Shown here piece after piece: positions 12,424 to 39,569 of a stretch of DNA of 39,569 nt. Below the pieces are notes generated by a model that saw only the letters and a program-made list of their open reading frames with translations, made no database searches and was not told the DNA's origin. How positions within the stretch are numbered: position 1 is the first letter of the stretch; the number at the start of each line of letters is the position of its first letter. Origin of the DNA: Paracoccaceae bacterium (GTDB lineage Bacteria > Pseudomonadota > Alphaproteobacteria > Rhodobacterales > Rhodobacteraceae). The DNA lies in NCBI GenBank assembly GCA_007695345.1, contig REDZ01000063.1, forward strand, positions 1 to 39,569. The letters are read 5' to 3'. The position numbers and the translations under genes were made by a program.

Positions 12424-13854
12424 TTACTGTGCGGCCCGAAGCGCCTGACGGGTTTCGGCTGTGGACAGCTGGCGGTGCATCCGCATGAATACCTCACGCG
12501 CAGCGGGGCGGTTGCCGGAATTCAGCAACGCGTAACCCTTCAGCAAGGTCAGATCGCGGCGCGCGTGCCCGGTCAGGCGCTCGTGCTCTTCGAAAAACGC
12601 AATGGCGCGCCCATAGTTCCCCTGATTGAAGGATCGCACACCCCGCTGATCGAGGATCTGGCTCTCGATCTCCAGCCTCTGGTCGCGGGTCAATTGTGCC
12701 CCCGCCAGAACCTGTGCGGCCTGTTCGGTCATGTTCATCTTCAACAGGGCCAGCAACCAGCCATAGGTGGCATCGCGGCGCATCGTGGCGGAACTGCCTG
12801 CCTGCGCGGCGCGGCGGAATGCATCGACGGCTTCCATCGGGCGCTCGGCATTGTAGGAACACCAAGCGCGCTCATAGACCAGATCGATCCGGGTCGCGCC
12901 TGCGGTCAGTGCCAGACAGTCGGACCACGCCCCGCGCTGCGCGGCGGCCCGCGCAGCGGCCAGATTGCCACCCCCCCCAGAGGGCGGCGCCTGAGCGGCC
13001 GTTAGCTGCGCAGGCCGCGATGGCGCGCGCGGGGTCGTGTCATTCGCCGCTTCGGCACCGGCGGCGGGCTCAGCGCGCTCTGGCGCGCTCGCAGCCAGAT
13101 CGATGGCCTGTTCGTTGTTGCCCCAGCGCGGCTCTTCCCCGCGCCCGGCGCGCAACCGGTCCTCGACCTGCCGGATACGCGCTGCGTCATCGGGTGCCTG
13201 CGTCCGGGCGGTATCGGCCAGCGCCCCCAACTCGGACAAGGTGGCGATTTCGTCGGCCTTCTCCAGCGTCGCGATCAGCACTTCGGGGTCCGTGCAGGTG
13301 TTGATGACCGACCGGAACACGACCAGCGCGCGCGGCGTCTCGCCCAACGCCTGATGCATATCTGCCAGGCTCCACGCATTGTTGATCCGCTCGCAGGACA
13401 ACAGGTTCGGCACGCGGCGCATGATGCTGATTGCGGTTTCCGGCCGCCCCGCCGCTACAGCGGCATCGAAATCAACCTGCGCTTCGGACACGGCCAACAG
13501 GTCCAGCAGGTCAGAGGGCGGCGACCAGTCGGAATAGGCGGAATCCGTCTCGGATATCAGGCGGCGCGCGCTCTCGAACTCCTCGGCCTCGATAAGCCGA
13601 TAGATCTGGTCGATCGAGTCGGGTCCGGTGGTGGTTACCAGACCGGACAGATCATCGGGCGGCGACCAGTCGGGGAACTGGATCTGCAAGCGCTGCAATT
13701 CCGCCCGCACGGCGCGGTCGTTGTCCTGTTGCAGATAGAAGCGCAGCGCCTGCAGATCGCTCTGGCTGGGCCCCTGTGCCAGCGCGGGCGTCGCAAGGGC
13801 GCAACTCAGGGCAACAAGGCTGCACCGCAGCGCGCGGATCAGATCGGACGACAT
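12424..13854 (-). CDS. Periplasmic TPR-type protein of the cellulose operon
   Basis: 476 aa beginning with a Sec signal peptide (MSSDLIRALRCSLVALSCAL, ending near ALAQ-G at 26-27). The start at 13854 overlaps the bcsZ stop by 16 bases; the longer open frame upstream is out-of-frame bcsZ sequence. Two copies of a helical unit of about 47 residues each end in the motif DWSPPxDL (62-69 and 109-116). Further TPR-like helix pairs run through the C-terminal half, for example RRAAQAGSSATMRRDATYGW and YGRAIAFFEEHERLTG. A low-complexity Ala/Pro linker sits in the middle. BcsC proteins combine periplasmic TPRs with an outer-membrane barrel; here no barrel-length C-terminus exists. It may be a periplasmic scaffold for cellulose export. 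Confidence 0.8.
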   Translation of the reverse strand: MSSDLIRALRCSLVALSCALATPALAQGPSQSDLQALRFYLQQDNDRAVRAELQRLQIQFPDWSPPDDLSGLVTTTGPDSIDQIYRLIEAEEFESARRLISETDSAYSDWSPPSDLLDLLAVSEAQVDFDAAVAAGRPETAISIMRRVPNLLSCERINNAWSLADMHQALGETPRALVVFRSVINTCTDPEVLIATLEKADEIATLSELGALADTARTQAPDDAARIRQVEDRLRAGRGEEPRWGNNEQAIDLAASAPERAEPAAGAEAANDTTPRAPSRPAQLTAAQAPPSGGGGNLAAARAAAQRGAWSDCLALTAGATRIDLVYERAWCSYNAERPMEAVDAFRRAAQAGSSATMRRDATYGWLLALLKMNMTEQAAQVLAGAQLTRDQRLEIESQILDQRGVRSFNQGNYGRAIAFFEEHERLTGHARRDLTLLKGYALLNSGNRPAAREVFMRMHRQLSTAETRQALRAAQ

Positions 13855-26329: not shown

Positions 26330-27124
26330 TCAGGCTTGCAGCGTCTGGGTCGAGGCGAAGAACATCGCCTGCGACACCGCAGAGCGCACCTGCTCTTCCT
26401 GAAAGGGTTTGGCGATCATGAAGGCCGGTTCAGGCTTTTCGCCCGTCAGCAACCGTTCAGGGTAGGCTGTGATGAAGATGACAGGGATATCCGGGTAATC
26501 CTGCATCAGTTCCTTGACCGCATCGACACCTGACGAGTCGTCGGCAAGATGAATATCCGCCAGCACCAGATCAGGGCGTTCGCTCTTGCCCAGCTTCACG
26601 GCCTCGGTATGCGTGCGCGCGATGCCTGTGACAGAATGGCCCATATCGGTCACGATGCTCTTGATATCCAGCGCGATGAGCGGTTCATCCTCGATGATCA
26701 GGATACGCCCCTGCACCGAACGGGACATTTCCTTGTAGGCGATAGCCACCAGATCGCGCGCCTCTTCGGGGCTGACCTGAATGATCGTGCCGATATCCTC
26801 GAACGAAAACTCTTCCAGCGCGCGCAGCAGAAGCGCCTCGCGCGTGTTGGCTGTCAGTTGCGTCAGCAGTTCCTGCGCGCGCCCTTCGATCCCTTCGACC
26901 GGGTCATTGCCAACGGGTGCGCCCGTGCTTTGCCAGACGGTGTGAAACGCCTGAAACAGGCTGAGTTTTGCCGACAGATCATCGGGCAACAGGCTGCGAT
27001 CCTGCAAGATGGCTTCGAGCGTCGCAGCCGCGTAACGGTCGCCGGTCGATTGCGACCCTGTCAGTGCGCGCGCATAGCGGCGCAGATATGGAAGCTCCCT
27101 GGCAACTTGAGTGGATTTCGGCAT
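26330..27124 (-). CDS. phyR: General stress response regulator PhyR
   Basis: 264 aa with the diagnostic order: an N-terminal sigma-like output domain (about 1-135, including TREALLLRALEEFSFEDIG) and a C-terminal receiver (about 139-262). The receiver has acidic residues Glu145/Asp146, phosphoacceptor Asp190 in LVLADIHLAD, Thr219 in FITAYPERLLTG and Lys239 in AKPF. Phosphorylated PhyR mimics a sigma factor and captures NepR, freeing EcfG. It is divergent from nepR-ecfG and preceded by its own EcfG-type promoter, giving positive feedback. Confidence 0.97.
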   Translation of the reverse strand: MPKSTQVARELPYLRRYARALTGSQSTGDRYAAATLEAILQDRSLLPDDLSAKLSLFQAFHTVWQSTGAPVGNDPVEGIEGRAQELLTQLTANTREALLLRALEEFSFEDIGTIIQVSPEEARDLVAIAYKEMSRSVQGRILIIEDEPLIALDIKSIVTDMGHSVTGIARTHTEAVKLGKSERPDLVLADIHLADDSSGVDAVKELMQDYPDIPVIFITAYPERLLTGEKPEPAFMIAKPFQEEQVRSAVSQAMFFASTQTLQA

Positions 27125-27511: not shown

Positions 27512-28087
27512 ATGAAAGATGTCATCAAGGCTGAGGGCGTGAGCGATCCAAGAGAAGAGATTGTCACGCATCTGCCAGCGCTGCGCGCTTTCGCGCGCGG
27601 GCTGACAGGGGATGTCAGCGCCGCTGACGATCTGGTTCAGGACACCGTCCTCAAGGCGTGGAGCAAGTTCCACCTGTATCAGCAGGGCACGAACCTGCGC
27701 GCATGGTTGTTCACCATCCTGCGCAACGGTTTTCTGTCCGGGCGGCGCAAAAGCGCAAAGGAAGTGGCGGACAGCGAAGGCAGTTTTGCGGCGAAACTCG
27801 CCAGTAAACCCGATCACGATGGCCGGCTGGCGATGCAGGAACTGACCGTCGCCCTGCGCCAGTTGCCCGACGAACAGCGCGAGGCCCTGCTGCTGGTCGG
27901 CGCGCTTGGCTTTTCGGTCGAGGAAGCGGCCGAAACCTGCGGCTGCGCCCCCGGCACCATCAAAAGCCGCGCCAATCGCGGACGCGCCGCCCTTGCGCAG
28001 ATTCTGGGTCTGGAAAAGGGTGAACAGCTGGACAATACCGACAGCGCCGTGGCGTCGGTGGTGACGGTCGCACCAGATAATCTGTAA
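27512..28087 (+). CDS. ecfG: General stress ECF sigma factor EcfG
   Basis: 191 aa with a sigma-2 region (about 17-85: LRAFARGLTGDVSAADDLVQ, and the -10-contacting FHLYQQGTNLRAWLFTILRN) and a sigma-4 region (about 105-165: LRQLPDEQREALLLVGALG, then GCAPGTIKSRANRGRAAL). No sigma-3 region, as expected for ECF factors. The layout nepR-ecfG divergent from phyR is the standard GSR locus. It probably drives the GGAAC-N17-GTT promoters found across this window. Confidence 0.96.
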   Translation: MKDVIKAEGVSDPREEIVTHLPALRAFARGLTGDVSAADDLVQDTVLKAWSKFHLYQQGTNLRAWLFTILRNGFLSGRRKSAKEVADSEGSFAAKLASKPDHDGRLAMQELTVALRQLPDEQREALLLVGALGFSVEEAAETCGCAPGTIKSRANRGRAALAQILGLEKGEQLDNTDSAVASVVTVAPDNL

Positions 28088-29865: not shown

Positions 29866-30384
29866 ATGCCAACCCAGCAAGACCTGAATGATCCTGTCGA
29901 TGAAAACCGCGCCCTGCAGGCGACGGAAAGCAAGATCGCGATTGCCGGGCACCCGCTTCATGCAATGCTGGTGGCCTTTCCCATCGCGCTGACCATGTCG
30001 GTTCTGGGGGCTGATCTGCTGTATTGGTGGACCGCCGATGCATTCTGGGCGCGCGCGGCGGGATGGGCCACATTCGGCGCCTTTCTGATGGGGGTGATCG
30101 CCGGTATCACCGGCACGATCGAATTGCTGATGGTGCAGGGCATCCGCAACCGATCCGCAAGCTGGACACATTTCATCCTTGCAGTGATGCTCTTGTCGGT
30201 GCTGGGGGCAAACTGGGGTGTGCGCGTCGGCGATTACGAAGCGGCAGTGCTGCCACTTGGTCTGCTGATCTCGGTGCTGGCCGCCGGGCTGACCGCCGTG
30301 ACCGGCTGGCATGGCGGCAAACTGGTCTTTGACTACCAGATCGGCACCAAACTCTCGCATCCCCGCCCCGGCACGGAACCCTGA
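29866..30384 (+). CDS. DUF2231 family membrane protein
   Basis: 172 aa with four hydrophobic helices (about 30-50, 60-85, 97-115 and 122-145) and the family start GHPLHAMLVAFPIALTMSVLGADLLYWW. Such proteins often accompany redox or stress genes; the conserved His pair in GHPLH may bind a cofactor. It follows the sensor kinase by 20 bp with an AGAGGT ribosome site and is probably co-transcribed. Function unknown. Confidence 0.85.
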   Translation: MPTQQDLNDPVDENRALQATESKIAIAGHPLHAMLVAFPIALTMSVLGADLLYWWTADAFWARAAGWATFGAFLMGVIAGITGTIELLMVQGIRNRSASWTHFILAVMLLSVLGANWGVRVGDYEAAVLPLGLLISVLAAGLTAVTGWHGGKLVFDYQIGTKLSHPRPGTEP

Positions 30385-30399
30385 CGCGACAGGAGCGTT
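30375..30399 (+). promoter_or_regulatory. Possible EcfG-type promoter overlapping the DUF2231 stop
   Basis: GGAAC (30375-30379), 17 bases, then CGTT (GTT at 30397-30399). The predicted transcript would begin at or next to the ATG of the flavoprotein gene at 30408, making it leaderless, and the AGGAG ribosome site lies inside the spacer. The pattern is good but the geometry is doubtful. Confidence 0.4.
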
Positions 30400-30407
30400 C
30401 ACGCATA

Positions 30408-31787
30408 ATGGCGGATCAGACTGACCTCGCGCACCCGAAAGAGCAGCAACCCCTGCATGACCGGTCCCCGGTCGTGTGGACACATGGCACGGCGATCATC
30501 CTCTTGGGGGTGCTCGCCATCGGGGCACCCTTTGCCGTTCTGCGCCTGTTCGGCCCGTCCGGTTCCGGCACATGGACATGGGATTTCAGCATGGGGCTGG
30601 GCTTTGGCGCCCTGGGCATGGCCGCGCTGCAATTCGTGCTGACAGGCCGCCTGCGCTGGGTCACGCACCCGTTCGGGGCAGATATCGTCTATCTGGCGCA
30701 TCGCTACCTAAGCTGGGGGGCCGTTGCGCTGATGCTGGGGCATTTCGCGGTCCTCTATGTCTTTCACCAAGGGGCGCTTGGCGTCCTGAACCCGCTGGAG
30801 GCCCGGTGGGAACTGACGGTCGGGCGCGTGTCGCTGGTGTGCTTTCTGGCGCTGATCGTGACATCCGAATTCCGCAAGCTCTTGCAATTGCGCCATGAAT
30901 ACTGGCGCGCGCTGCATCTGGCGCTGGCGCTGGTCGGGATGGTCACGGCGATCGCGCATGTTCTGGGCGTGGGCAACCTGACCGACACGCCGGAAAAACG
31001 CGCGCTCTGGCTGGGCGCGACCCTGGGGTTCATGCTGGTTCTGGCCTACACGCATCTGATCCGCCCGTGGCTGCAGTCGCGCAACCCGTGGCGCGTGGTC
31101 GGCAACAGCGCGGAACGCGGCGGGGTGCATACGCTGCAACTTGAACCCGAGGGGCGGCATCTGAAACGCTGGAAACCCGGTCAGTTCGCGTGGCTCAAGG
31201 TCGGACGCTCGCCCTATTCGCTGATCGAGCATCCGTTCACCATCTCGACCGCGCCCGAGAAAGGGCCGAACCTGTCCTTTTCCATCAAGCCCCTGGGCGA
31301 TCATTCGGCCGAACTGGCGCAGACCGAAATCGGGGCGCGCGCCTATGTTGACGGGCCATATGGGGCCTTTTCCGTCGACCGCATGGCCGATGCCGAAGGG
31401 TTCGTCATGATCGCGGGCGGGGTGGGCATCACGCCGATCCTGTCAAACCTGCACGCGCTGGAAGCGCGCGGCGACAAGCGCCCCATCACGCTGATCTATG
31501 GCAGCCCGACATGGGAGGATGCGTCCTTCCGCGAGGAACTTGCCACGATGCGCTCGCGCCTGAACCTGACGCTGGTCCATGTGATCGATGCGCCACCCGC
31601 GGAGTGGACCGGCGAGAGTGGCAAGATCGACAGGGACATCCTGTCGCGCCATCTGACAGCAGAAATGCGCGTCTGGCCCCATCTGCTGTGCGGGCCGAAA
31701 CCGATGCTGGATGCCCTGCGCGCCGATCTGCGCGCGATGGGCGTGCCCCTGCATCATATCGATTATGAAATCTTTGAATTGGTGTGA
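30408..31787 (+). CDS. Ferric-reductase-like transmembrane flavoprotein oxidoreductase
   Basis: 459 aa. The N-terminal half (about 25-220) has six or so membrane helices with paired His residues (AHRYLSWGAVALMLGHFAVL and HEYWRALHLALALVGMVTAIAH) suited to heme b, as in ferric-reductase/NOX proteins. The C-terminal half is a ferredoxin-reductase-like module: FAD motif EHPFTISTAP, nucleotide-binding GGVGITPILSNL and the terminal CGPKPML. It would pass electrons from NAD(P)H through FAD and heme across the membrane; the acceptor is not evident. It lies between a DUF2231 gene and a glutamate dehydrogenase gene. Confidence 0.9.
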   Translation: MADQTDLAHPKEQQPLHDRSPVVWTHGTAIILLGVLAIGAPFAVLRLFGPSGSGTWTWDFSMGLGFGALGMAALQFVLTGRLRWVTHPFGADIVYLAHRYLSWGAVALMLGHFAVLYVFHQGALGVLNPLEARWELTVGRVSLVCFLALIVTSEFRKLLQLRHEYWRALHLALALVGMVTAIAHVLGVGNLTDTPEKRALWLGATLGFMLVLAYTHLIRPWLQSRNPWRVVGNSAERGGVHTLQLEPEGRHLKRWKPGQFAWLKVGRSPYSLIEHPFTISTAPEKGPNLSFSIKPLGDHSAELAQTEIGARAYVDGPYGAFSVDRMADAEGFVMIAGGVGITPILSNLHALEARGDKRPITLIYGSPTWEDASFREELATMRSRLNLTLVHVIDAPPAEWTGESGKIDRDILSRHLTAEMRVWPHLLCGPKPMLDALRADLRAMGVPLHHIDYEIFELV

Positions 31788-31788
31788 C

Positions 31789-31875
31789 ATGCGCCCGACC
31801 CTAGCCCTTGTTTTCGCCATTGCGCTGACACTGCTGGCCATTGGCCTTGCCGCGCATCTGGCCTTTGGACCCTGA
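31789..31875 (+). CDS. Possible 28-residue membrane peptide
   Basis: ATG-to-TGA frame of 28 codons starting one base after the flavoprotein stop and ending 12 bases before the glutamate dehydrogenase start. It reads MRPTLALVFAIALTLLAIGL and ends AAHLAFGP, a single membrane helix with one positive N-terminal residue. There is no strong ribosome site; translation would rely on coupling to the upstream gene. It could be a small subunit of the flavoprotein or a chance frame. Confidence 0.4.
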   Translation: MRPTLALVFAIALTLLAIGLAAHLAFGP

Positions 31876-31887
31876 CAGGAGAGCCCC

Positions 31888-33237
31888 TTGAAAGATCGTG
31901 CCGAAAGCCTACTGGAAAGCTTCTTGGAAACCGTCACCGCGCGCCACGCGGGCGAGACAGAGTTTCTTCAGGCCGTGGCCGAGATCGGCCGCGATGCCCT
32001 GACCATCGAGAAAGCCAGCAACGCCTATACACAGGCCCGCGTGCTGGAACGGCTATGCGAGGCGGATCGCATCATCAGCTTTTCGGTGGTCTGGCATGAT
32101 GACAGCGGCAACGTGCAGATCAACCGGGGCTGGCGCGTGCAGCATTCGGACCTGCTGGGCCCCTACAAGGGGGGCTTGCGCTGGTCACCCGATGTCACCC
32201 CATCCGTGCTGAAATTCCTGGCCTTTGAACAGGCCTTCAAGAACGCCCTGACCGGCCTGCCGCTGGGCGCGGCCAAGGGCGGCGCGGATTTCGACCCCAC
32301 AGGCCGCTCCGAAGCCGAGGTCAAGCGCTTCGCCCATGCCTTCATGACCGCGCTGGCCCCGCATATCGGGCCGGAGCGGGATGTGCCCGCAGGCGATATT
32401 GGCGTGGGCGCTGCCGAACTGGGGCTGATGAGCCGCGTCTGGATGCGACAGGCCGGGCGCTGGGGCGGCGCGCTGACCGGCAAGCCCGTGGCGCTGGGCG
32501 GCAGCGAATTGCGCGCCGAAGCAACGGGTTACGGGCTGGTCTATTTCACCGCCGCAATGCTGGACGAAATCGGCGACACGCTGGAAGGCAAGCGCATCGC
32601 CATCTCCGGGCGTGGCAATGTCTCGCGCCATGCCGCGCGCAAGGCCATGTCCCAAGGCGCGCGCGTGGTCACGCTATCCGGACGCGCGGGCACCTGGGTG
32701 GCCGAGGACGGGTTCACGCATGACGCGCTCGACTGGGTCATCGCGGCGAGTGGCGATCAGGCGAAAGCCCCGCCCGCCGATCTGGGCGTGACATTCCGTG
32801 AAGGCGCCAGCCCCTGGGGGGTCGCTGCCGATATCGCCCTGCCCTGCGCCACCCAGAACGAGGTCACGCTGGACGACGCCCGCGCGCTGACCGACACTGG
32901 CTGCCGCGTCCTGGCCGAAGGCGCGAACATGCCGCTGACGCGAGAGGCCGAGGCGCATCTGACCGCGCAGGGCGTGCTACAGGCGCCGGGCAAGGCCGCG
33001 AATGCCGGTGGCGTGGCCGTGTCCGGGCTGGAAATGCAGCAGAACGCCGGGTTCAGCCACTGGAATGCGGCGCGTGTCGATAGCTGCCTGCGCGATATCA
33101 TGTGCACCATCCATGAAAAGCTGATAAACGAGCGGCAAAGCTGCTGCTCGGCAGATGGTCAGATCGATTATCGGCGCGCGGCCAATGTCGCGGGATACCG
33201 CGTGTTGGCCGATGCCCTGATCGCGGCGGACATCTGA
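31888..33237 (+). CDS. gdhA: Glu/Leu/Phe/Val-type glutamate dehydrogenase
   Basis: 449 aa, close to the hexameric GdhA length. It interconverts 2-oxoglutarate plus ammonium and glutamate with NAD(P)H. Seen: substrate-binding GPYKGGLRW (about 91-99), catalytic LPLGAAKGGADF (Lys near 130), DVPAGDIGVGAAE (catalytic Asp), the coenzyme loop ISGRGNVSRHAA, and C-terminal NAGGVAVSGLEMQQN. The start is an unusual TTG at 31888, supported by AGGAG about seven bases upstream and full-length family alignment. Coenzyme choice is not settled from sequence. Confidence 0.94.
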   Translation: MKDRAESLLESFLETVTARHAGETEFLQAVAEIGRDALTIEKASNAYTQARVLERLCEADRIISFSVVWHDDSGNVQINRGWRVQHSDLLGPYKGGLRWSPDVTPSVLKFLAFEQAFKNALTGLPLGAAKGGADFDPTGRSEAEVKRFAHAFMTALAPHIGPERDVPAGDIGVGAAELGLMSRVWMRQAGRWGGALTGKPVALGGSELRAEATGYGLVYFTAAMLDEIGDTLEGKRIAISGRGNVSRHAARKAMSQGARVVTLSGRAGTWVAEDGFTHDALDWVIAASGDQAKAPPADLGVTFREGASPWGVAADIALPCATQNEVTLDDARALTDTGCRVLAEGANMPLTREAEAHLTAQGVLQAPGKAANAGGVAVSGLEMQQNAGFSHWNAARVDSCLRDIMCTIHEKLINERQSCCSADGQIDYRRAANVAGYRVLADALIAADI

Positions 33238-33264
33238 ACGCAGTCAGGATTACGGGGCTGCGCC

Positions 33265-33289
33265 GGAACCAGAACCGCCCGATCACGTT
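33265..33289 (+). promoter_or_regulatory. EcfG-type promoter of the csbD-DUF883-holin-like operon
   Basis: GGAAC (33265-33269), 17 bases, then GTT preceded by C (33286-33289). The csbD ATG is 34 bp downstream with an AAGGAG ribosome site in between. Confidence 0.8.
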
Positions 33290-33322
33290 GTATTGGCAAC
33301 AACCCTGATGAAGGAGACTGCC

Positions 33323-33520
33323 ATGAATTGGGACCAGATCGGTGGCAAATGGAAACAGCTCAAAGGCTCTGCCAAGGAAAAATGGGGCAAGCTGACCGAT
33401 GACGAACTGGATCAGGCTGCAGGCAATCGCGACAAGCTTGTGGGCAAGGTTCAGGAAAAATACGGTATCGCCAAGGAAGAGGCCGAAAAGCAGGTCGATG
33501 ACTGGGCTGCCAGATCATAA
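33323..33520 (+). CDS. CsbD family stress protein
   Basis: 65 aa, MNWDQIGGKWKQLKGSAKEK followed by a second amphipathic helix: the standard CsbD sequence. CsbD proteins are abundant general-stress proteins of unknown mechanism, first seen under sigma-B in Bacillus. The ATG at 33323 has AAGGAG seven bases upstream. An EcfG-type promoter precedes it. Confidence 0.95.
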   Translation: MNWDQIGGKWKQLKGSAKEKWGKLTDDELDQAAGNRDKLVGKVQEKYGIAKEEAEKQVDDWAARS

Positions 33521-33583
33521 GCGCAGGGTGGCGCGGCCCAAGACTGCGCCCCACCCCCGCACCACGAATTTCAGGAGGCAATG

Positions 33584-33991
33584 ATGGCACGACAAACGGT
33601 GAGCAAAGTGACTGATGATGACGAAACCAAGAAGAACGTCCGCAACCTGAAGCGCACGGCATCGAATGCCGCCAGCAAGGGCGAGGATGTTGCGGACCTG
33701 GCATATGAGGAGCTGCTGGAACAGTTCAACGCGCTGAAAGAGGATTTCGCGGCGTTGTCCGACAGTCTTGCCAAGGCTGGCAAGCAAGGCGCCGAAGATG
33801 TAGCGGAATCCGCCAGGCAGACGGGCCGCAGGGCTGCTGCCAAGGCGAACGAAAGCGCCGAATATGCCGTGGATCAGGTCGAATCGACGCTGGAAGAGGC
33901 CGAGAACTTCGCCCGCAAGCGTCCGGGCACCGCACTGGGCATCGCGGCAGGCGCCGGGTTCCTGCTGGCACTGGTGATGTCGCGCCGCTGA
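33584..33991 (+). CDS. DUF883 family (ElaB/YqjD-like) membrane-anchored protein
   Basis: 135 aa. A long charged helix, partly coiled-coil (about 30-110, including EELLEQFNALKEDFAALSDS), ends in a C-terminal membrane anchor (ALGIAAGAGFLLALVMSRR). E. coli YqjD and ElaB have the same design and bind stalled ribosomes at the membrane; that role is by analogy. Of the two adjacent ATGs, 33584 has the better distance (5 nt) to AGGAGG. It ends in TGATG, coupled to the next gene. Confidence 0.88.
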   Translation: MARQTVSKVTDDDETKKNVRNLKRTASNAASKGEDVADLAYEELLEQFNALKEDFAALSDSLAKAGKQGAEDVAESARQTGRRAAAKANESAEYAVDQVESTLEEAENFARKRPGTALGIAAGAGFLLALVMSRR

Positions 33992-34371
33992 TGCTTGTGC
34001 CCTACGACCATCTTCGGCTCAAGGCCCATTGGTATGCGCGGCGCATCTGGCTGACCGTGATCGGCGGGCTGCTTCTGGGAATCGGAGGGGGCTTTCTGGT
34101 CGCGGCAGGCTGGAAGGTACTGGCCGAGCAATTTTCGCCAGTGGTCGCGACCCTGTCCTGCGCGGCAGTGTTTCTTGGCGCGGGGCTGATCGTTCTGTCG
34201 CGCGTCAACGCGCAGCCAGAGCCGAGGATTCCCTCACTCGATGAGCGTTTGCGCGCCGATGCTGCGCGCGGGCGCCACACTGCCCCCGACGGCCAGTTCC
34301 CCGCATTGATGGAAGCGTTCCTGTTCGGCGTCGCGACTTATACCCGCGTCAGAAATCAGCGGCGGCGGTAA
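33991..34371 (+). CDS. Holin-superfamily-III-like (DUF1469-type) membrane protein
   Basis: 126 aa with two membrane helices (about 22-42 and 49-70) and a hydrophilic tail rich in Arg and Asp. The size, two-helix layout and location after CsbD and DUF883 genes fit the putative 'phage holin family' found in stress operons; nothing phage-related surrounds it. The ATG shares bases with the DUF883 stop (TGATG), so translation is coupled. Confidence 0.75.
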   Translation: MLVPYDHLRLKAHWYARRIWLTVIGGLLLGIGGGFLVAAGWKVLAEQFSPVVATLSCAAVFLGAGLIVLSRVNAQPEPRIPSLDERLRADAARGRHTAPDGQFPALMEAFLFGVATYTRVRNQRRR

Positions 34372-34559
34372 CACTCCGTCCGCCAAGGCGTCCCGTCGGC
34401 CAAAAACAGATGCGGCGCAAACCCGGCATCGCGCGTCGCACGGGTTCCGATCACGGTTTCGAAAGCTGACGCAACGTCGATGGCGGCCCCCACCTGCGTC
34501 ACGGGGTGCCGCCGGCAATGGCCTGCCGATTAGCACGGCAGAGACGCTGAAAATGTCAT
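34356..34559 (-). pseudogene. Possible broken small ORF
   Basis: On the minus strand an ATG at 34559 opens MTFSASLPC, followed by a TAA stop and then, in the same frame, 58 codons that look protein-like (CRRHPVTQ, then DVASAFETVIG, then HLFLADGTPWRTECYRRR) to a TGA at 34356. The Cys/His spacing is suggestive, but I do not recognise a family. It may be a decayed small gene, a frameshifted one, or a GC-driven open frame. An alternative is a 48-aa ORF from a GTG at 34502. Confidence 0.25.
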
Positions 34560-34733
34560 CTTTCGGGTTGGTGATTCTAAATATCTGTTCGGTAATACAA
34601 ATTTTTCTCTGGGAAAAATCTTTTTTTTGAATGTCATCCTGACCGGATGCTTTTCCCGAAGCGTCAAATCCAGGATCGAGCCTGAGTCACCGTCCGGCGC
34701 GGCGCCGCGCGTTCAGGTCTTACCTTTCCTGAC
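34372..34733. other. Intergenic region before the HWE kinase
   Basis: 362 bp without a firm gene. The left half is GC-rich and holds the possible broken minus-strand ORF. The right half is notably A+T-rich (34560-34650, with a T8 run at 34622-34629), unlike the rest of the window, and would suit a promoter region. TAATAC (34591-34596) could be a -10 for the plus-strand kinase, but no matching -35 is clear. No EcfG-type site is seen here. Confidence 0.5.
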
Positions 34734-36149
34734 ATGCAGTGCAATGATACCACTATGCTTTCTACCCAGACGATAGACCCCGGCAGCGCACACAACCTGA
34801 TGAACGCTCATTTGCTTGACCATGCGCCACTCGGCGTCTTTGTTACCGATCCACTGGGCCGGATAGCCAGCGTGAACGCGCATCTCTGCAAGCTTCTGGG
34901 GCGACCCGATGCCGAACTGATCGGGCGCATGGCCAGCGACATGGTGCTGGACCAAGACCTTGACACATTTCTGGCCGCGCAGACCGGGCTGGATGCGACC
35001 GCCGGAAATGTATCGGTCGAGGTCAGCCTGTCGCGCAATGATGGGCAGGTGATCGTCGCGAACTGCACATTCACCGGCCTGTGCGACCCATCTGGCAACC
35101 CCAATGGCATGCTGGCCGTCATTCTGGATATCTCCGAACGCGTGTCGCTGGAACGCAGGCTGCGCGACAGCGAGGCCCGGTTGCGGCAGGTTCTGGACAA
35201 TACCGTTGCGATGATCGGTATTGTGCAAACCGATGGCACCCTTATCGAAGCGAACATGCCCGCCCTCCGCGCAGCGGATCTGACCCGCGGCGATGTGATC
35301 GGCAAGAAATTCTGGGACTGCCACTGGTGGCGCGACAACCCGGTTGAGGTGGCGCGCCTGCAGGACGCTGTTGCCGACGCCGCCGAAGGTCATGTCCAGC
35401 GCTATGACGCCGAGGTGCGCATGGCGGGCGACAGCACAATCTGGATCGATTTCATGCTGTCCCCGGTGTTTGATGATGATGGTGAGGTCAGCCAACTGAT
35501 CGCGTCGGCCTTTGACATTTCAGATCGCAAACGCACGGAGCGGCGCGTGACCTATGCAATGCGCGAGGTCAATCACCGATCCAAGAACCTGCTGGCGGTG
35601 GTGCAATCCATGCTGCGGCAGATGCGCCCCACCAATCTGGACGATTTCGTGCATGGCTTTGGCCAGCGCCTGCGCGCCCTGTCGGATTGTCAGGAATTGC
35701 TGCTCCAGGCGGATGACGAAGACCCGCTGCTCGAGGATCTGATCCAGTCGCAGCTTGCCCCTTTCGGCAGCAGCATCTGCGGTCGCGTCCGCCTGCACGG
35801 GCCAGCATTGCATATCCGCCCCGATACGGCGCAAAGTCTTGGCATGGCGGTGTATGAACTGATCACCAACGCGTCCAAATACGGGGCGCTGTCGGATGAC
35901 TCGGGCGAAATCGACATCACCTGGACGCTGGAGCCGCCCAGCCAGGACCAGGAAGAAACCTTTACGCTCAGCTGGCGCGAACAGAAAGGCCCGAAGGTCA
36001 CCCCGCCGGAACAGCGCGGCTTCGGGTCCATGGTGCTCGAGGATATGATGGCCATGGCGCTGGCAGCCCAGACCCACACCGATTACACGCCCGAAGGGCT
36101 GCACTGGTCACTGCGCGCGCCGCGTTCGGCGATCGAGGGCGCGGACTGA
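34734..36149 (+). CDS. PAS-PAS HWE-family sensor histidine kinase
   Basis: 471 aa, no membrane helix, so cytoplasmic. Two PAS domains (about 25-140 and 150-265; first LLDHAPLGVFVTDPLGRIAS, second VLDNTVAMIGIVQTDG) precede an HWE kinase core. Phospho-His281 lies in REVNHRSKNLLAVVQS, the N-box in GMAVYELITNASKYGALS, and the W-x-E feature in LSWREQKGP. HWE kinases are frequent PhyR-type GSR kinases. The ATG at 34734 has no evident ribosome site; another ATG in frame is at 34755. It may be a second input to the stress system. Confidence 0.9.
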   Translation: MQCNDTTMLSTQTIDPGSAHNLMNAHLLDHAPLGVFVTDPLGRIASVNAHLCKLLGRPDAELIGRMASDMVLDQDLDTFLAAQTGLDATAGNVSVEVSLSRNDGQVIVANCTFTGLCDPSGNPNGMLAVILDISERVSLERRLRDSEARLRQVLDNTVAMIGIVQTDGTLIEANMPALRAADLTRGDVIGKKFWDCHWWRDNPVEVARLQDAVADAAEGHVQRYDAEVRMAGDSTIWIDFMLSPVFDDDGEVSQLIASAFDISDRKRTERRVTYAMREVNHRSKNLLAVVQSMLRQMRPTNLDDFVHGFGQRLRALSDCQELLLQADDEDPLLEDLIQSQLAPFGSSICGRVRLHGPALHIRPDTAQSLGMAVYELITNASKYGALSDDSGEIDITWTLEPPSQDQEETFTLSWREQKGPKVTPPEQRGFGSMVLEDMMAMALAAQTHTDYTPEGLHWSLRAPRSAIEGAD

Positions 36150-36177
36150 TCCGCCCCGCGCGGATTGACGCACCCCC

Positions 36178-36202
36178 GGAACCCCCTGCCCGCAGCCACG
36201 TT
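36178..36202 (+). promoter_or_regulatory. EcfG-type promoter of the 59-residue membrane protein gene
   Basis: GGAAC (36178-36182), 17 bases, then GTT preceded by C (36199-36202). The expected transcript start leaves a leader of about 20 nt carrying AAGGAGG before the ATG at 36229, which also rules out the ATG at 36211 as start. Confidence 0.75.
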
Positions 36203-36228
36203 TTGCGGCCATGAAAAAGGAGGTTCTT

Positions 36229-36408
36229 ATGGAAACCCTGTCACTTGTGTTTTTTCTCGCGCTGTTCACCCTGATCGCGTTTCTGGTCTTTGCCTATGTG
36301 AACAAGCGCAAGACCGAAGAACAGCTGCAAGAGGACCGCCCCCCGTCGTCACTGGCAAAGGACAGCCAGGGGCCCGGCGCGGTCGAACGGCTGGACGACA
36401 TCAAGTAA
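36229..36408 (+). CDS. Small single-pass membrane protein, stress-regulated
   Basis: 59 aa. One N-terminal membrane helix (LSLVFFLALFTLIAFLVFAY, about 4-23), then KRK and a charged tail. AAGGAGG sits five bases before the ATG at 36229. The frame also opens with an ATG at 36211, but the promoter position argues against it. Not recognised as a named family. An EcfG-type promoter and a following terminator make it a one-gene unit. Confidence 0.8.
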   Translation: METLSLVFFLALFTLIAFLVFAYVNKRKTEEQLQEDRPPSSLAKDSQGPGAVERLDDIK

Positions 36409-36435
36409 CCGGCGCCGCCCGGTTGAACAGACGGG

Positions 36436-36480
36436 TGCCCGGCCAATGGTGTGGAACCATGGGCCGGGCATCCGCGTTTT
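36436..36480 (+). terminator. Terminator after the 59-residue protein gene
   Basis: A 9-bp stem (TGCCCGGCC), one mismatch, a further 5 bp and a 5-nt loop, then TCCGCGTTTT. It lies about 28 bp after the stop. Confidence 0.6.
36453..36478 (+). promoter_or_regulatory. Possible EcfG-type promoter of the 89-residue protein gene
   Basis: GGAAC (36453-36457), 18 bases to GTT (17 to CGTT), 42 bp before the ATG. The -35 part lies inside the preceding terminator stem, so the match may be partly fortuitous. Confidence 0.45.
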
Positions 36481-36519
36481 GTCGTCAGCCGCATTGATGC
36501 GAGACTGAAAGGAGGACAC

Positions 36520-36789
36520 ATGACCGCTCCTGACACCAATGTGAAAAAGCAGGCGAAAAAGCACAAGGCACCGCTGATCGGCATGGCCGTCGCAGGCGGT
36601 GTGGCGCTTGTGTTGCTGCTGTGGCTGGGGTCGCAATATGTAACCGTCACCCCGGATGAAAACGCCGATCCACCCGCCGCCGCCGAAGAACCCGCCGGCC
36701 TGCCCGCCGAGGGTGATGTATCCGCCCCGACAGAGGACGGGACAAGCACACCTCAGGTGATCGAGGAGCAGCCGACCCCGAGCGACTGA
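36520..36789 (+). CDS. Single-pass membrane protein with acidic periplasmic tail
   Basis: 89 aa. A Lys-rich cytoplasmic start (KKQAKKHK), one membrane helix (APLIGMAVAGGVALVLLLWLG, about 17-37) and a tail rich in Pro, Glu, Asp and Ala predicted to be disordered outside the cytoplasm. AAGGAGG lies five bases before the ATG. Not recognised. It is closed by a strong terminator and may be a stress gene. Confidence 0.78.
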   Translation: MTAPDTNVKKQAKKHKAPLIGMAVAGGVALVLLLWLGSQYVTVTPDENADPPAAAEEPAGLPAEGDVSAPTEDGTSTPQVIEEQPTPSD

Positions 36790-36810
36790 CGCGAGGAACC
36801 GGCGCAATCG

Positions 36811-36838
36811 AAACCCCGCCCATCTGGCGGGGTTTTTT
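36811..36838. terminator. Rho-independent terminator shared by convergent genes
   Basis: A 10-bp stem AAACCCCGCC with a 5-nt loop and a T6 run on the plus strand, A-run on the other side. It serves the 89-residue gene and possibly the convergent transporter gene. Confidence 0.9.
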
Positions 36839-37882
36839 CATGGCCGGCCCTCGATCTCGACCTGGTCCTTGTAAAGCGCGCTGGCGCGGTAGCGGTCGAT
36901 CAGATGGCGCATCACAACCCCGGCAATCGCGGCAAGGGGCGCCGCCATCAGCGCAGCTGCACAGCCAAAGACCGTGCCAAAGGCATAGATCGCCGCGACA
37001 GCCGCAATCCAGCCCGGATCGCCCCAGAACTGCCACAGCGCGACCCCCATCCCCAGCGATGTGCCGATGAACATGCCCACATAGGGAATGACGGACACTG
37101 CCCCCGTCACGACCCCCACCGCGATCGCAAAGGGCAGCCCCACAAGCGACAGGGACAGCGCGTAATAGCCCATCAGAATACTGCACACGATGGCCTGCCC
37201 CCGGATATAGCCCGACAGCGTTCGGTCGATATCGCGCGCGATGCCGCGCAGGGTCGGGGCGATGGCCGGGGCAGCAGCGTGTCCGCGCCGTGAATCAGGC
37301 GCGGCCAGTCGATCAGCAGATAGACCGTGACCACAGGCATCACGACCCAGAACATCACGATGGGCACCAGACCCGACATGCCCAGCACCAGATTGCTCAT
37401 GGCATTGCCCAGCGCCTCGGTCAGCCCCTCGGCGCCGTTCTCGGCCACCTCGTCCGGATCATCCAGCCGGTCCGCAACCGCCGCGGGCAGGAAGGACTGC
37501 GCCTGATCGCGCGCCTCTTCCCGGCTTGACGGCAGGGCATCCAGCAACGCGGTCGATTCCAGCACCACAAAAGGCACGGCAATCGACGGCACGGCCAACA
37601 ACGTGCCGAATGTCACCAGCGCGACCAGTATCCCCGCCCAGACGCGCCGCAGCCCCAGATCCGTCAGCTTGCGCACGACCGGGTCCAGAAACCAGGCCAA
37701 CGCAAGGGCGATCACGAAGGACAGCAGCATGGATGACAGCAGCCAGATCAGAAAGCCGAAGACCCCCAGAATGCCGATCCAGGCAAAACCTTCCAGTAAA
37801 TCAGCATCGGATGGCCCTGCGCGGGGTCGCGCGGGGTATCCGAGGACAGGCCTGGTCCTGCCAGGTCGGACTCGTTCTGCAT
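36838..37882 (-). pseudogene. AI-2E family transporter, interrupted by two apparent frameshifts
   Basis: The family (AI-2E/PerM/TqsA type) has about 350 residues and eight or so membrane helices. Here the protein is spread over three frames: MQNESDLAGPGLSSDTPRDP and on from an ATG at 37882 (AAGGA nine bases upstream); then FAWIGILGVFGFLIWLLSSM through VTVYLLIDWPRLIHGADTLL; then RGIARDIDRTLSGYIRGQ and on to VEIEGRP. Joining them needs one extra base at the A4 run 37785-37788 and one at the G4 run 37268-37271. Both sites are homopolymers, so sequencing error is as likely as real inactivation. Restored, it would be 348 aa. Confidence 0.8.
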
Positions 37883-37910
37883 CAGCCGCTTCCTTTTTGC
37901 TGTGGCGGAT

Positions 37911-37935
37911 GGAACCTGTTTGCGCGCAAGGCGTT
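37911..37935 (+). promoter_or_regulatory. EcfG-type promoter with no downstream coding gene
   Basis: GGAAC (37911-37915), 17 bases, then GTT preceded by C (37932-37935), pointing to the plus strand. No plus-strand gene starts behind it; a terminator follows about 60-100 bp later. Confidence 0.65.
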
Positions 37936-37941
37936 ACGTCC

Positions 37942-38035
37942 ATGTTCCTCTACCATATGCAGGTCGATCCGCCTGTATCTGGCTCCCTCCCGGTCGCCCG
38001 CCATGCTTGTTTTCCCTCGCATGGCGGGCATTTTT
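37942..38035 (+). ncRNA. Candidate EcfG-dependent small RNA
   Basis: About 94 nt from the expected start behind the promoter at 37911 to the T-run of a terminator. Predicted layout: a 7-bp 5' stem with one wobble (37957-37963 with 37972-37978), a single-stranded C-rich linker holding CTCCCTCCC (37983-37991), and an 11-bp terminator stem whose 12-nt loop again holds TTCCCTC. The C-rich motifs could pair with Shine-Dalgarno sequences. The only AUG near the start opens a frame with no stop before the terminator, so it is not a small mRNA. The design recalls Caulobacter GsrN, a sigma-T-dependent RNA with a C-rich loop; no sequence homology is claimed. Confidence 0.6.
37996..38035 (+). terminator. 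Rho-independent terminator, plus strand only
   Basis: A perfect 11-bp stem GCCCGCCATGC, a 12-nt loop and ATTTTT. The T-run is on the plus strand only, so it cannot serve the minus-strand gene whose stop lies at its edge. It marks a plus-strand transcript here. Confidence 0.85.
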
Positions 38036-38334
38036 CACCCCCCGCAACTGGTCGTGACCGCCAGGGGAAACAGGGTGAACACGCTTGCCCCCAGCCCGAT
38101 CCACAGGCCCGCGCGCGGCAGACCGGCGCGCAGACCGGCTTGCGCAGGAAAGGCGCGCAGCAGCGGCGCGAAGGCCAACAGCCCCAATGCCCATACCAGC
38201 AGCAGTGTCAGGCGCGCGACTGTGCCGAATCCATCCGCAGGTGCAGCGCAGAACACGCCATGCAGCGCATAGATCACCACGAAAAGCACGGCCCAAAGCG
38301 TGGGGCCCAGCAGAACCGTGCCCAGCCACTTCAT
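38035..38334 (-). CDS. Small membrane protein of the cytochrome oxidase operon
   Basis: 99 aa with three hydrophobic helices (about 5-28, 41-61 and 76-95). The start at 38334 overlaps the stop of the oxidase gene by four bases (ATGA), so it is translationally coupled. It is probably an accessory or small subunit of the oxidase. Not recognised as a named family. Confidence 0.75.
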   Translation of the reverse strand: MKWLGTVLLGPTLWAVLFVVIYALHGVFCAAPADGFGTVARLTLLLVWALGLLAFAPLLRAFPAQAGLRAGLPRAGLWIGLGASVFTLFPLAVTTSCGG

Positions 38335-39569
38335 CCGACCACCCCCTGCGCGATAAGGACCGCCAGCGTGATCGCAACAATGCCGGCGGTGAAATTCTGC
38401 CACATGCGGCATGCGGGCCAGGCGGCGGCCTCGGTCACTGTCACCTCGCCGCGCCTGTGCTGGTCCAGCGTGAACAGGGCCATCGCAATCGCGACCAGCA
38501 CATGCAGCCCGACATAGCCCGCCATCACCGCGCGCAGCGCGTCGCGGGCGTGGCGCGTCGGGTCATCAAGCTGCGGCACGATCCATAACAGCGCCCCCAG
38601 CGCCACCAGGTTCAGGCCCGCGCCCAGACCCGCCCCAAGCGGCGTTCCCAGCCGCAGCACCAGCGCGCCCAGCGCCAGCGCCGCCGCCAGAACGCCCAGC
38701 GCGGGCAGCAAGGCGGGCGCGTCGAACCCCGCAGGCGGGGCCGCCGGGCCGGGCGTGACCACCGACAGAAACCCCAGCCCGAACAGAAGCGAGGCAAAGA
38801 GCGTGCCATTGGCGACCAGAAACGCGACAAGCCCGCTTTGCCCCAATGTATGCGTCGCACGGGGGTGCACGGGCAGACGCAGGTCGGGCGCGACCTCGAC
38901 CGCGTCCAGATCGCGCGTGACCACCATCCCGCGCGCCCAGACCCAGATCAGCGCGGCCACGGGCAGCAGCGCCAGCCCCGCCAGCGCATAGAGGCCCGCC
39001 AGCATCAGCAGCACAAAGACGCAGATCGACCCCGACAGCACCAAAGGCAGCGCTGTATTGCCCGGCAGGATCGCGACATGATCGGGCCGCGCCCCTTCGA
39101 CCGAGGTGACGAGGAATTCGCGCCGGTTGCGCGGGGCACCGGGCAGCGCCCCCTCGCCGCGCGCCAGCGACAGGATCACCTCAGACGCACTCTGCCCCAG
39201 ATGCCGCGCCACCGGAAGCGAGGCGAAATTGTAGTTCGGCGACGGGATCGGCATGGCCCAGTCAAGCGCCGGCGCGCCCCACGGATCGCGGGCCTCGCGC
39301 TTGCCAAGCGTCGCCTGCAGGATCAGGTCCAGCGCGAACATCGCGAACCCGATCGTCATCAGATAGCTGAAGATCGACGAGGTCAGGTTCAGCCAGACCC
39401 ATTCGGGGTTGTCGGGATAGACATCAATCCGCCGTGGCATCCCCAGCAGCCCGGTCAGATGCATGATGAAGAATGTGCCGTGAAACCCGATCAGGATGAC
39501 CCAGAACGCCGCCTCGCCCAGCCCCTTGGCGCGGCGCTTGCCGGTGATCAGCGGCATCCAGTAGGTCGC
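38331..39569 (-). CDS. Cytochrome c oxidase subunit I, C-terminal part (probable I/III fusion), partial
   Basis: 412 residues are visible and the frame is open to the window edge (ATYWMPLITGKR continues past the first visible Met), so the N-terminal catalytic part lies outside. Residues from WVILIGFHGTFFIMHLTGLLGMPRRIDVYP are helices X-XI of heme-copper oxidase subunit I, and NYNFASLPVARH is the usual subunit I tail. A further 250 residues with about six helices follow (HTLGQSGLVAFLVANGTLFA), as in fused CtaD-CtaE proteins. It works in the inner membrane as a terminal oxidase; the exact class cannot be fixed without the missing part. Confidence 0.85.
   Translation of the reverse strand, partial: ATYWMPLITGKRRAKGLGEAAFWVILIGFHGTFFIMHLTGLLGMPRRIDVYPDNPEWVWLNLTSSIFSYLMTIGFAMFALDLILQATLGKREARDPWGAPALDWAMPIPSPNYNFASLPVARHLGQSASEVILSLARGEGALPGAPRNRREFLVTSVEGARPDHVAILPGNTALPLVLSGSICVFVLLMLAGLYALAGLALLPVAALIWVWARGMVVTRDLDAVEVAPDLRLPVHPRATHTLGQSGLVAFLVANGTLFASLLFGLGFLSVVTPGPAAPPAGFDAPALLPALGVLAAALALGALVLRLGTPLGAGLGAGLNLVALGALLWIVPQLDDPTRHARDALRAVMAGYVGLHVLVAIAMALFTLDQHRRGEVTVTEAAAWPACRMWQNFTAGIVAITLAVLIAQGVVG

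Follow-up and report, generated by a model that had tools for sequence, protein, structure and literature searches.

The window analysed here, a 39,569-nucleotide (nt) contig of a Paracoccaceae bacterium (assembly GCA_007695345.1, contig REDZ01000063.1), very likely holds a conserved small RNA dependent on the general stress sigma factor EcfG, encoded in the gap between an AI-2E-type transporter gene and a small conserved gene. Judged from the sequence, the product of this locus is probably a trans-acting RNA of about 94 nt, intergenic and part of an unannotated sigma-EcfG-dependent family with predicted anti-Shine-Dalgarno action. Members of this family appear to lie in the general-stress island both of Roseinatronobacter/Natronohydrobacter-like Rhodobacteraceae and of another genus. 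Such a family is indicated by the conservation of the EcfG promoter unit, by a 5' motif that is fixed, by covariation in the terminator, by co-occurrence with PhyR and by linkage to the stress island. Rfam 15, run over the whole window at gathering score, gave no match on the RNA, and none was obtained in 37850-38100 (E <= 10) or in 16 related loci (E <= 0.5). Likewise, no account of the RNA was found in the accessible parts of the literature on EcfG/PhyR small RNAs, cuckoo RNAs, Roseinatronobacter small RNAs and the Rhodobacteraceae stress response.

Promoter and architecture of the predicted RNA

The gap spans 152 bp (37883-38034) from the start of the AI-2E-type gene (ATG at 37882, minus strand; the start codon was picked by likeness to the relative G001) to the stop codon of the small gene. 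The initial annotation had described a GGAAC-N17-GTT promoter pointing into this gap, from which no plus-strand gene begins, and both points were borne out (Table 1): two mechanical plus-strand open reading frames (248 and 304 amino acids) merely cross the gap antisense to both neighbours, and neither had a Pfam match at E <= 1. An EcfG consensus promoter lies directly upstream of a non-coding unit, as in sigma-EcfG-dependent small RNAs, and GGAAC...GTT was present in 16 of 16 genus copies examined. A composition-only estimate puts the chance expectation for GGAAC-N16-CGTT sites at 0.28 in the window, both strands included. For the looser GGAAC-N17-GTT, the 3.26-Mb genome has 67 sites, compared with 84 for a reversed control; since it is rarer than its control, the pattern alone means little at the genome scale. 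Eight of the 67 sites fall within the 39.6-kb window (1.2% of the genome), a clustering in keeping with a general-stress island. Six of the seven other window sites lie just upstream of reading frames or form the divergent phyR/ecfG pair, the remaining one being at 12620 (-).

Table 1. Positions of the predicted RNA, its parts and neighbouring genes in the window
Feature	Position	Strand	Basis or remark
Sigma-EcfG-type promoter GGAAC-N16-CGTT (= GGAAC-N17-GTT)	37911..37935	+	Pattern match, spacing
Predicted small RNA, about 94 nt	37942..38035	+	Start from promoter spacing, +/-2 nt; end = T-run
5'-terminal unpaired motif UGUUCCUCU (family: UGUYCC), candidate seed	37943..37951	+	
Hairpin 1	about 37953..37982	+	Folds
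C-rich linker CTCCCTCCC, candidate second pairing site	37983..37991	+	
Intrinsic terminator, perfect 11-bp stem, loop with TTTTCCCTC, T5	37996..38035	+	
PhyR	26330..27124	-	Pfam PhyR_sigma2, Response_reg
EcfG-type sigma factor	27512..28087	+	Pfam Sigma70_r2, Sigma70_r4_2; divergent neighbour of PhyR
AI-2E-type transporter gene, divergent from the RNA	36838..37882	-	
Small conserved gene beside COX1-like gene, convergent	38035..38334	-	Syntenic marker of the RNA

The predicted 94-nt RNA folds with an energy of -38.4 kcal/mol (z -5.6), which none of 200 shuffles equalled, and the RNAs of eight relatives have z values of -4.1 to -7.0. Its most conserved piece, missed by the initial annotation, is the 5' segment TGTTCCTCT. 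TGTYCC starts 7-8 nt past the -10 GTT in all 16 genus copies and also in a genome of another genus (G466), and the transcription start of an extracytoplasmic function (ECF) sigma factor promoter is expected about where TGTYCC begins. The first 9 nt are predicted to be unpaired at a mean probability of 0.99 in the window's RNA and of 0.55-0.99 across 18 folded RNAs. The 5' hairpin and the C-rich stretch of the initial annotation were recovered as hairpin 1 and the linker. Hairpin 1 varies in sequence among members, its stem still being predicted in every genus copy. The linker CCCTC of the window's RNA is unpaired at 0.79, and most other members have a C-rich segment, read by eye, in the linker or in the hairpin 1 loop. 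Over the RNAs as a whole the mean unpaired probability is 0.37-0.52, compared with 0.62-1.0 at [CT]CC[CT]C sites.

The terminator has the perfect stem and the plus-strand T-run that had been claimed for it: the 5' arm at 37996-38006, a loop at 38007-38018 (TTGTTTTCCCTC), the 3' arm at 38019-38029, an A, and T5 at 38031-38035; on the minus strand the stem is not followed by a T-run. Among 11258 overlapping 140-nt stretches taken from the window, 31 held a perfect stem of at least 9 bp with T5, and a terminator scan of 30000-39569 found a number not above chance (8 found, 7.4 expected). Across 14 sequences the stem was 99.4% paired with changes on both sides in 5 of its 11 pairs, and its covariation was 0.399, compared with at most 0.066 when the stem was slid. 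Alignment A1 was made without G020a and G012a, which are diverged, and without G026, which is cut by a contig end; alignment A4 comprised 14 of the 18 RNAs, leaving aside G012a and G012b (near-duplicates of those of G020) and two Pararhodobacter RNAs; G466 and G459 are in no alignment. Two other alignments, A2 (7 rows) and one more, were set aside. RNAalifold proposed that the -35 box pairs with the 5' GTTCC; this was rejected, as the pairing is partly outside the RNA and is broken where the motif is TGTCCC.

Conservation within the genus

The small gene was found in 20 of 37 genus genomes, and beside many of its copies lay a promoter-to-terminator unit of diverged sequence. A covariance model (R1) trained on 10 sequences from such units matched 14 of the 37 genomes at E <= 1.4e-13, and the unit that recurs consists of an EcfG promoter, a 5' UGUYCC, a hairpin, mostly unpaired CCCUC-type motifs and a terminator. 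Ten of these 14 are training genomes, and G012 and G020 had already been spotted by eye; the independent finds in the genus were G003, G017 and second copies in G012 and G020. PhyR (E <= 1e-20) was detected in 19 of the 37 genomes and all 14 carriers were among them (Fisher p = 2.4e-6, a value overstated by the relatedness of the genomes). One copy is in locus L128, recorded as Roseinatronobacter sp. HJB301. The initial annotation had staked its proposal on conservation of the promoter and the C-rich segments, and these were retained in the 14 carriers and in another genus.

Between the window's genome and its nearest relative, G001, the RNA is 96.8% identical (95 columns) and eight nearby genes are 84.6-93.7% identical; values for the small gene, the COX1-like gene and the AI-2E-type gene are 91.0%, 91.7% and 84.6%, those for six other gaps 54.5-92.0%, and that for the 29 nt left of the promoter 93.1%. 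Searched as DNA against 60 genomes, the 151-bp segment returned, besides itself, one true homologue, that of G001; weak matches in G033 and G034 were rejected, being by eye inside a murD-like coding sequence. A search of the genus for the promoter-to-TGTYCC pattern gave 19 places in 15 of 37 genomes, 16 of them the RNAs, a number not above the control.

The second RNA copies of G020 and G012 are diverged and lie on another contig (L110:6208-6344 (-) and L060). In the 12 kb around that of G020, none of 15 window island proteins was matched.

Distribution outside the genus

A survey of 248 Rhodobacteraceae genomes from 247 genera (the own genus being represented twice), made with stricter filters, gave R1 matches at E <= 0.01 in 15 genomes, one being the own genome; of the rest, 10 were partial and 4 full-length but weak. 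At the sensitivity of R1 the RNA family is lineage-restricted. In the one further genus, 7 of 18 genomes matched R1 at E <= 0.05, and we find the units in three of them (G466, G453 and G459) convincing. That of G466 is a clear syntenic homologue (E 3.5e-15) outside the training set. In the genome G453, a Pararhodobacter metagenome-assembled genome, two orphan EcfG units are separated by about 5 kb within the stress island (locus L124), and they are the only R1 matches at E <= 0.01 in that whole genome. G453 and G459 each combine a UGUCCC-type unit with a second, shorter one that has UCCCUCCCUCC. R1 did not return the UGUCCC-type unit of G459, which was identified by eye.

Among 46 other-genus loci near PhyR or the small gene, 157 EcfG-like sites were counted, compared with 50 and 118 for two control patterns, and an EcfG-like site followed by a terminator was found 5 times, compared with 0 and 0 in the controls; two of these five are the Pararhodobacter units, and the others are in L212, L215 and L226. 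A family-wide search for the promoter plus TGTYCCT had matches in 20 of 394 genomes, fewer than the reversed-pattern control (over 50). Six candidates from this and the genus-level pattern search were rejected by eye, no such unit being seen.

The shorter orphan EcfG unit lies in the stress islands of two other-genus genomes (L124:16524-16618 (+) and L283:9850-9944 (+)). It has an RNA of about 63 nt with ATGATCCCTCCCTCCTTGACTGA followed by a terminator, is without UGUYCC and matches R1 weakly. A shorter EcfG RNA of the form AUGAUC..CCCUCCCUCC..terminator accordingly stands beside the family in one genus.

Stress island and neighbouring genes

The closeness to the phyR-ecfG island noted in the initial annotation amounts to about 10 kb from ecfG in the window, where HisKA_2/HWE kinases were also found with Pfam. 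The RNA lies about 12-30 kb from phyR in G010, G012, G017, G020 and G021, and the units of G453 and G459 about 1.5-6.5 kb from the phyR-ecfG locus; in the other eight carriers the RNA and phyR are on separate contigs. Wherever this was measurable, the RNA is in a stress-gene island, near ecfG-phyR.

The AI-2E-type gene is intact in G001. In the window its reading frame is broken near 37787 and once more farther along, and it also lacks an internal stretch present in that of G001, from an assembly error or as a pseudogene. Two small genes at 36178-36408 and 36451-36789 (+) gave no Pfam match, and the first has an upstream EcfG site. Relatives of the second often adjoin the RNA, and those in L098, L105 and L284 are preceded by EcfG sites. 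The same assembly holds a second PhyR-EcfG-DUF2231 locus (L103, on a 5381-bp contig, C85). Its identity is 88-90% with Rhabdonatronobacter-type loci and about 75-83% with the window, and it is either a genuine second locus or due to a contig from another organism in the bin.

Proposed mode of action and points against it

Under stress, PhyR would free EcfG from NepR and RNA polymerase carrying EcfG would then make the RNA. Its exposed pyrimidine-rich motifs (the 5' UGUYCC, the CUCCCUCC linker and the CCCUC of the terminator loop) could pair with purine-rich Shine-Dalgarno regions of mRNAs, and this pairing would be expected mostly to block translation. The stress sigma factor may in this way gain a post-transcriptional, probably repressive arm. 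The fuller proposal, a new family independent of GsrN, present in at least two Rhodobacteraceae genera and predicted to restrain translation broadly by means of several anti-Shine-Dalgarno modules in a single molecule, is one on which we see the balance as about even.

Most of the following observations weigh against a conserved, PhyR-linked RNA with anti-Shine-Dalgarno motifs; the excess of two motifs speaks for it. Relative to shuffles, CCCTC (20 observed, 7.8 +/- 2.5 in shuffles) and T[CT]CC[CT] (52, 32.7 +/- 5.2) were in excess in the RNAs and CCTCC (12, 7.6 +/- 2.4) and [CT]CC[CT]C (33, 35.8 +/- 6.0) were not enriched, all of these figures being descriptive, as the RNAs are related and inspection preceded the choice of motifs; G020a and G012a are without any [CT]CC[CT]C site. 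The number of further pair types in the terminator stem was reached by 43 of 500 shuffles, and covariation of this kind would be expected of any conserved terminator. Weaker R1 matches (E 2.8e-5 to 0.083) occur in 11 more genus genomes, some of which are without PhyR. Nearly all of these cover the terminator end alone. The best of them, in G007, is the sole full-length one below 1e-3; its promoter-like part falls within the end of a reading frame, and it is without UGUYCC. Conversely, five PhyR-bearing genus genomes (G015, G016, G026, G029 and G031) gave no strong R1 match; in G026 a contig end cuts the locus at the terminator, and in G031 the whole gap was available and held no RNA. In the family survey the 4 weak full-length matches were by eye without an EcfG promoter, and PhyR was present in 112 of the 248 genomes, compared with R1 matches in 15. 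Finally, katG, the target that GsrN activates by pairing with its leader, gained no support as a target here: GGAGGGA, the 7-nt complement of UCCCUCC, was found in the katG leader of 9 of 12 genomes with the RNA versus 14 of 18 without it (30 of the 35 katG-bearing genomes being examined); RNA-katG duplex energies were no stronger in carriers and were not used as evidence.

Alternative explanations

It is unlikely that the RNA is mainly a sponge, whose repeated pyrimidine motifs bind a protein or another RNA instead of mRNAs. Short unpaired motifs are indeed repeated, and katG, the one gene tested, gave no target signal, but the motifs are complementary to Shine-Dalgarno sequences and we know of no pyrimidine-binding partner of such kind in these bacteria.

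Equally doubtful is that the RNA is a diverged orthologue of GsrN and not an independent family. GsrN is encoded in Caulobacter crescentus (ccna_R0081) and predicted elsewhere in Caulobacteraceae and in Rhizobiales; as described in the available text, its BLASTn homologues are confined to Caulobacteraceae, those of Rhizobiales were inferred from position, promoter and, for some, transcript data (PMC5869019), and the word Rhodobacter has no match in the paper's main text. Common to GsrN and the predicted RNA are the class of sigma factor, a length of about 100 nt, an exposed C-rich segment and, as for most predicted gsrN genes, a place near ecfG-phyR (PMC5869019). In GsrN, however, six tandem cytosines in a 5' loop are credited with recognition, and cleavage yields a stable 5' isoform (same source), whereas the RNA described here has a mostly unpaired 5' UGUYCC and U-interrupted CCCUC motifs in the linker and in loops, including that of the terminator; no six tandem cytosines in a 5' loop were seen by eye in its sequences and folds.

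A purely local role, as a terminator of the COX1-side operon, as promoter noise of the AI-2E-type gene or as a cis-antisense RNA to the 3' end of the small gene, is quite improbable. The plus-strand stem ends 5 nt before the stop codon of the small gene and the minus-strand stem directly follows that gene, as a local role would have it, but the T-run is on the plus strand only. Moreover, the RNA is kept where the neighbours differ (the small gene is about 30 kb off in G003 and about 1 kb in G017), the second RNA copy of G020 is on another contig than the small gene, and only some members have an AI-2E match adjoining the RNA. Still less probable is a small mRNA for a short peptide: an AUG is present at the predicted 5' end in the window, but this start is not conserved, the window frame reads through the terminator, and in G011, G009 and G002 a stop follows, by eye, three codons from the 5' start, so no frame is conserved. 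Membership in the CcsR/cuckoo RNAs of Rhodobacterales, which have a C-rich motif facing Shine-Dalgarno sequences and with which the predicted RNA would share such a motif and a stress role, is hardly credible. The CcsR1-4 RNAs of Rhodobacter sphaeroides, likewise stress RNAs of Rhodobacteraceae, are described in the accessible text as processed by RNase E from a DUF1127-gene operon with an RpoHI/RpoHII promoter (PMC10253847), whereas the EcfG unit found here is free-standing. DUF1127 had no match among the 14 window protein sequences scanned, a subset of the window's frames, and the RNA had none in Rfam.

Comparison with known systems

Action of the general stress sigma factor beyond direct promoter activation is known in detail mainly from GsrN of Caulobacter. 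A conserved EcfG-type RNA tracking PhyR in Rhodobacteraceae would be a second, possibly independent case, and a testable one, given that it is a unit of about 125 bp whose loss would be expected to alter stress survival or the stress proteome. In Escherichia coli, RybB has its seed at the 5' end. RybB and MicA, both RpoE-dependent, share with the predicted RNA the logic of an ECF sigma factor that has a repressive small-RNA arm, as far as the accessible text describes them (PMC8103513), and differ from it in sigma factor, targets and lineage, the comparison being one of descriptions. Closer to the present lineage, a PhyR-NepR-EcfG locus is present in R. sphaeroides according to the text available (PMC5830050). 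The initial annotation had proposed a regulator analogous to GsrN, and the evidence above supports this, the analogy being reasonable in the sense of 'works like': the predicted RNA resembles GsrN, here compared by description alone, in its logic. We would place it among the EcfG-dependent small RNAs, a known kind, as a new family that probably works like GsrN.
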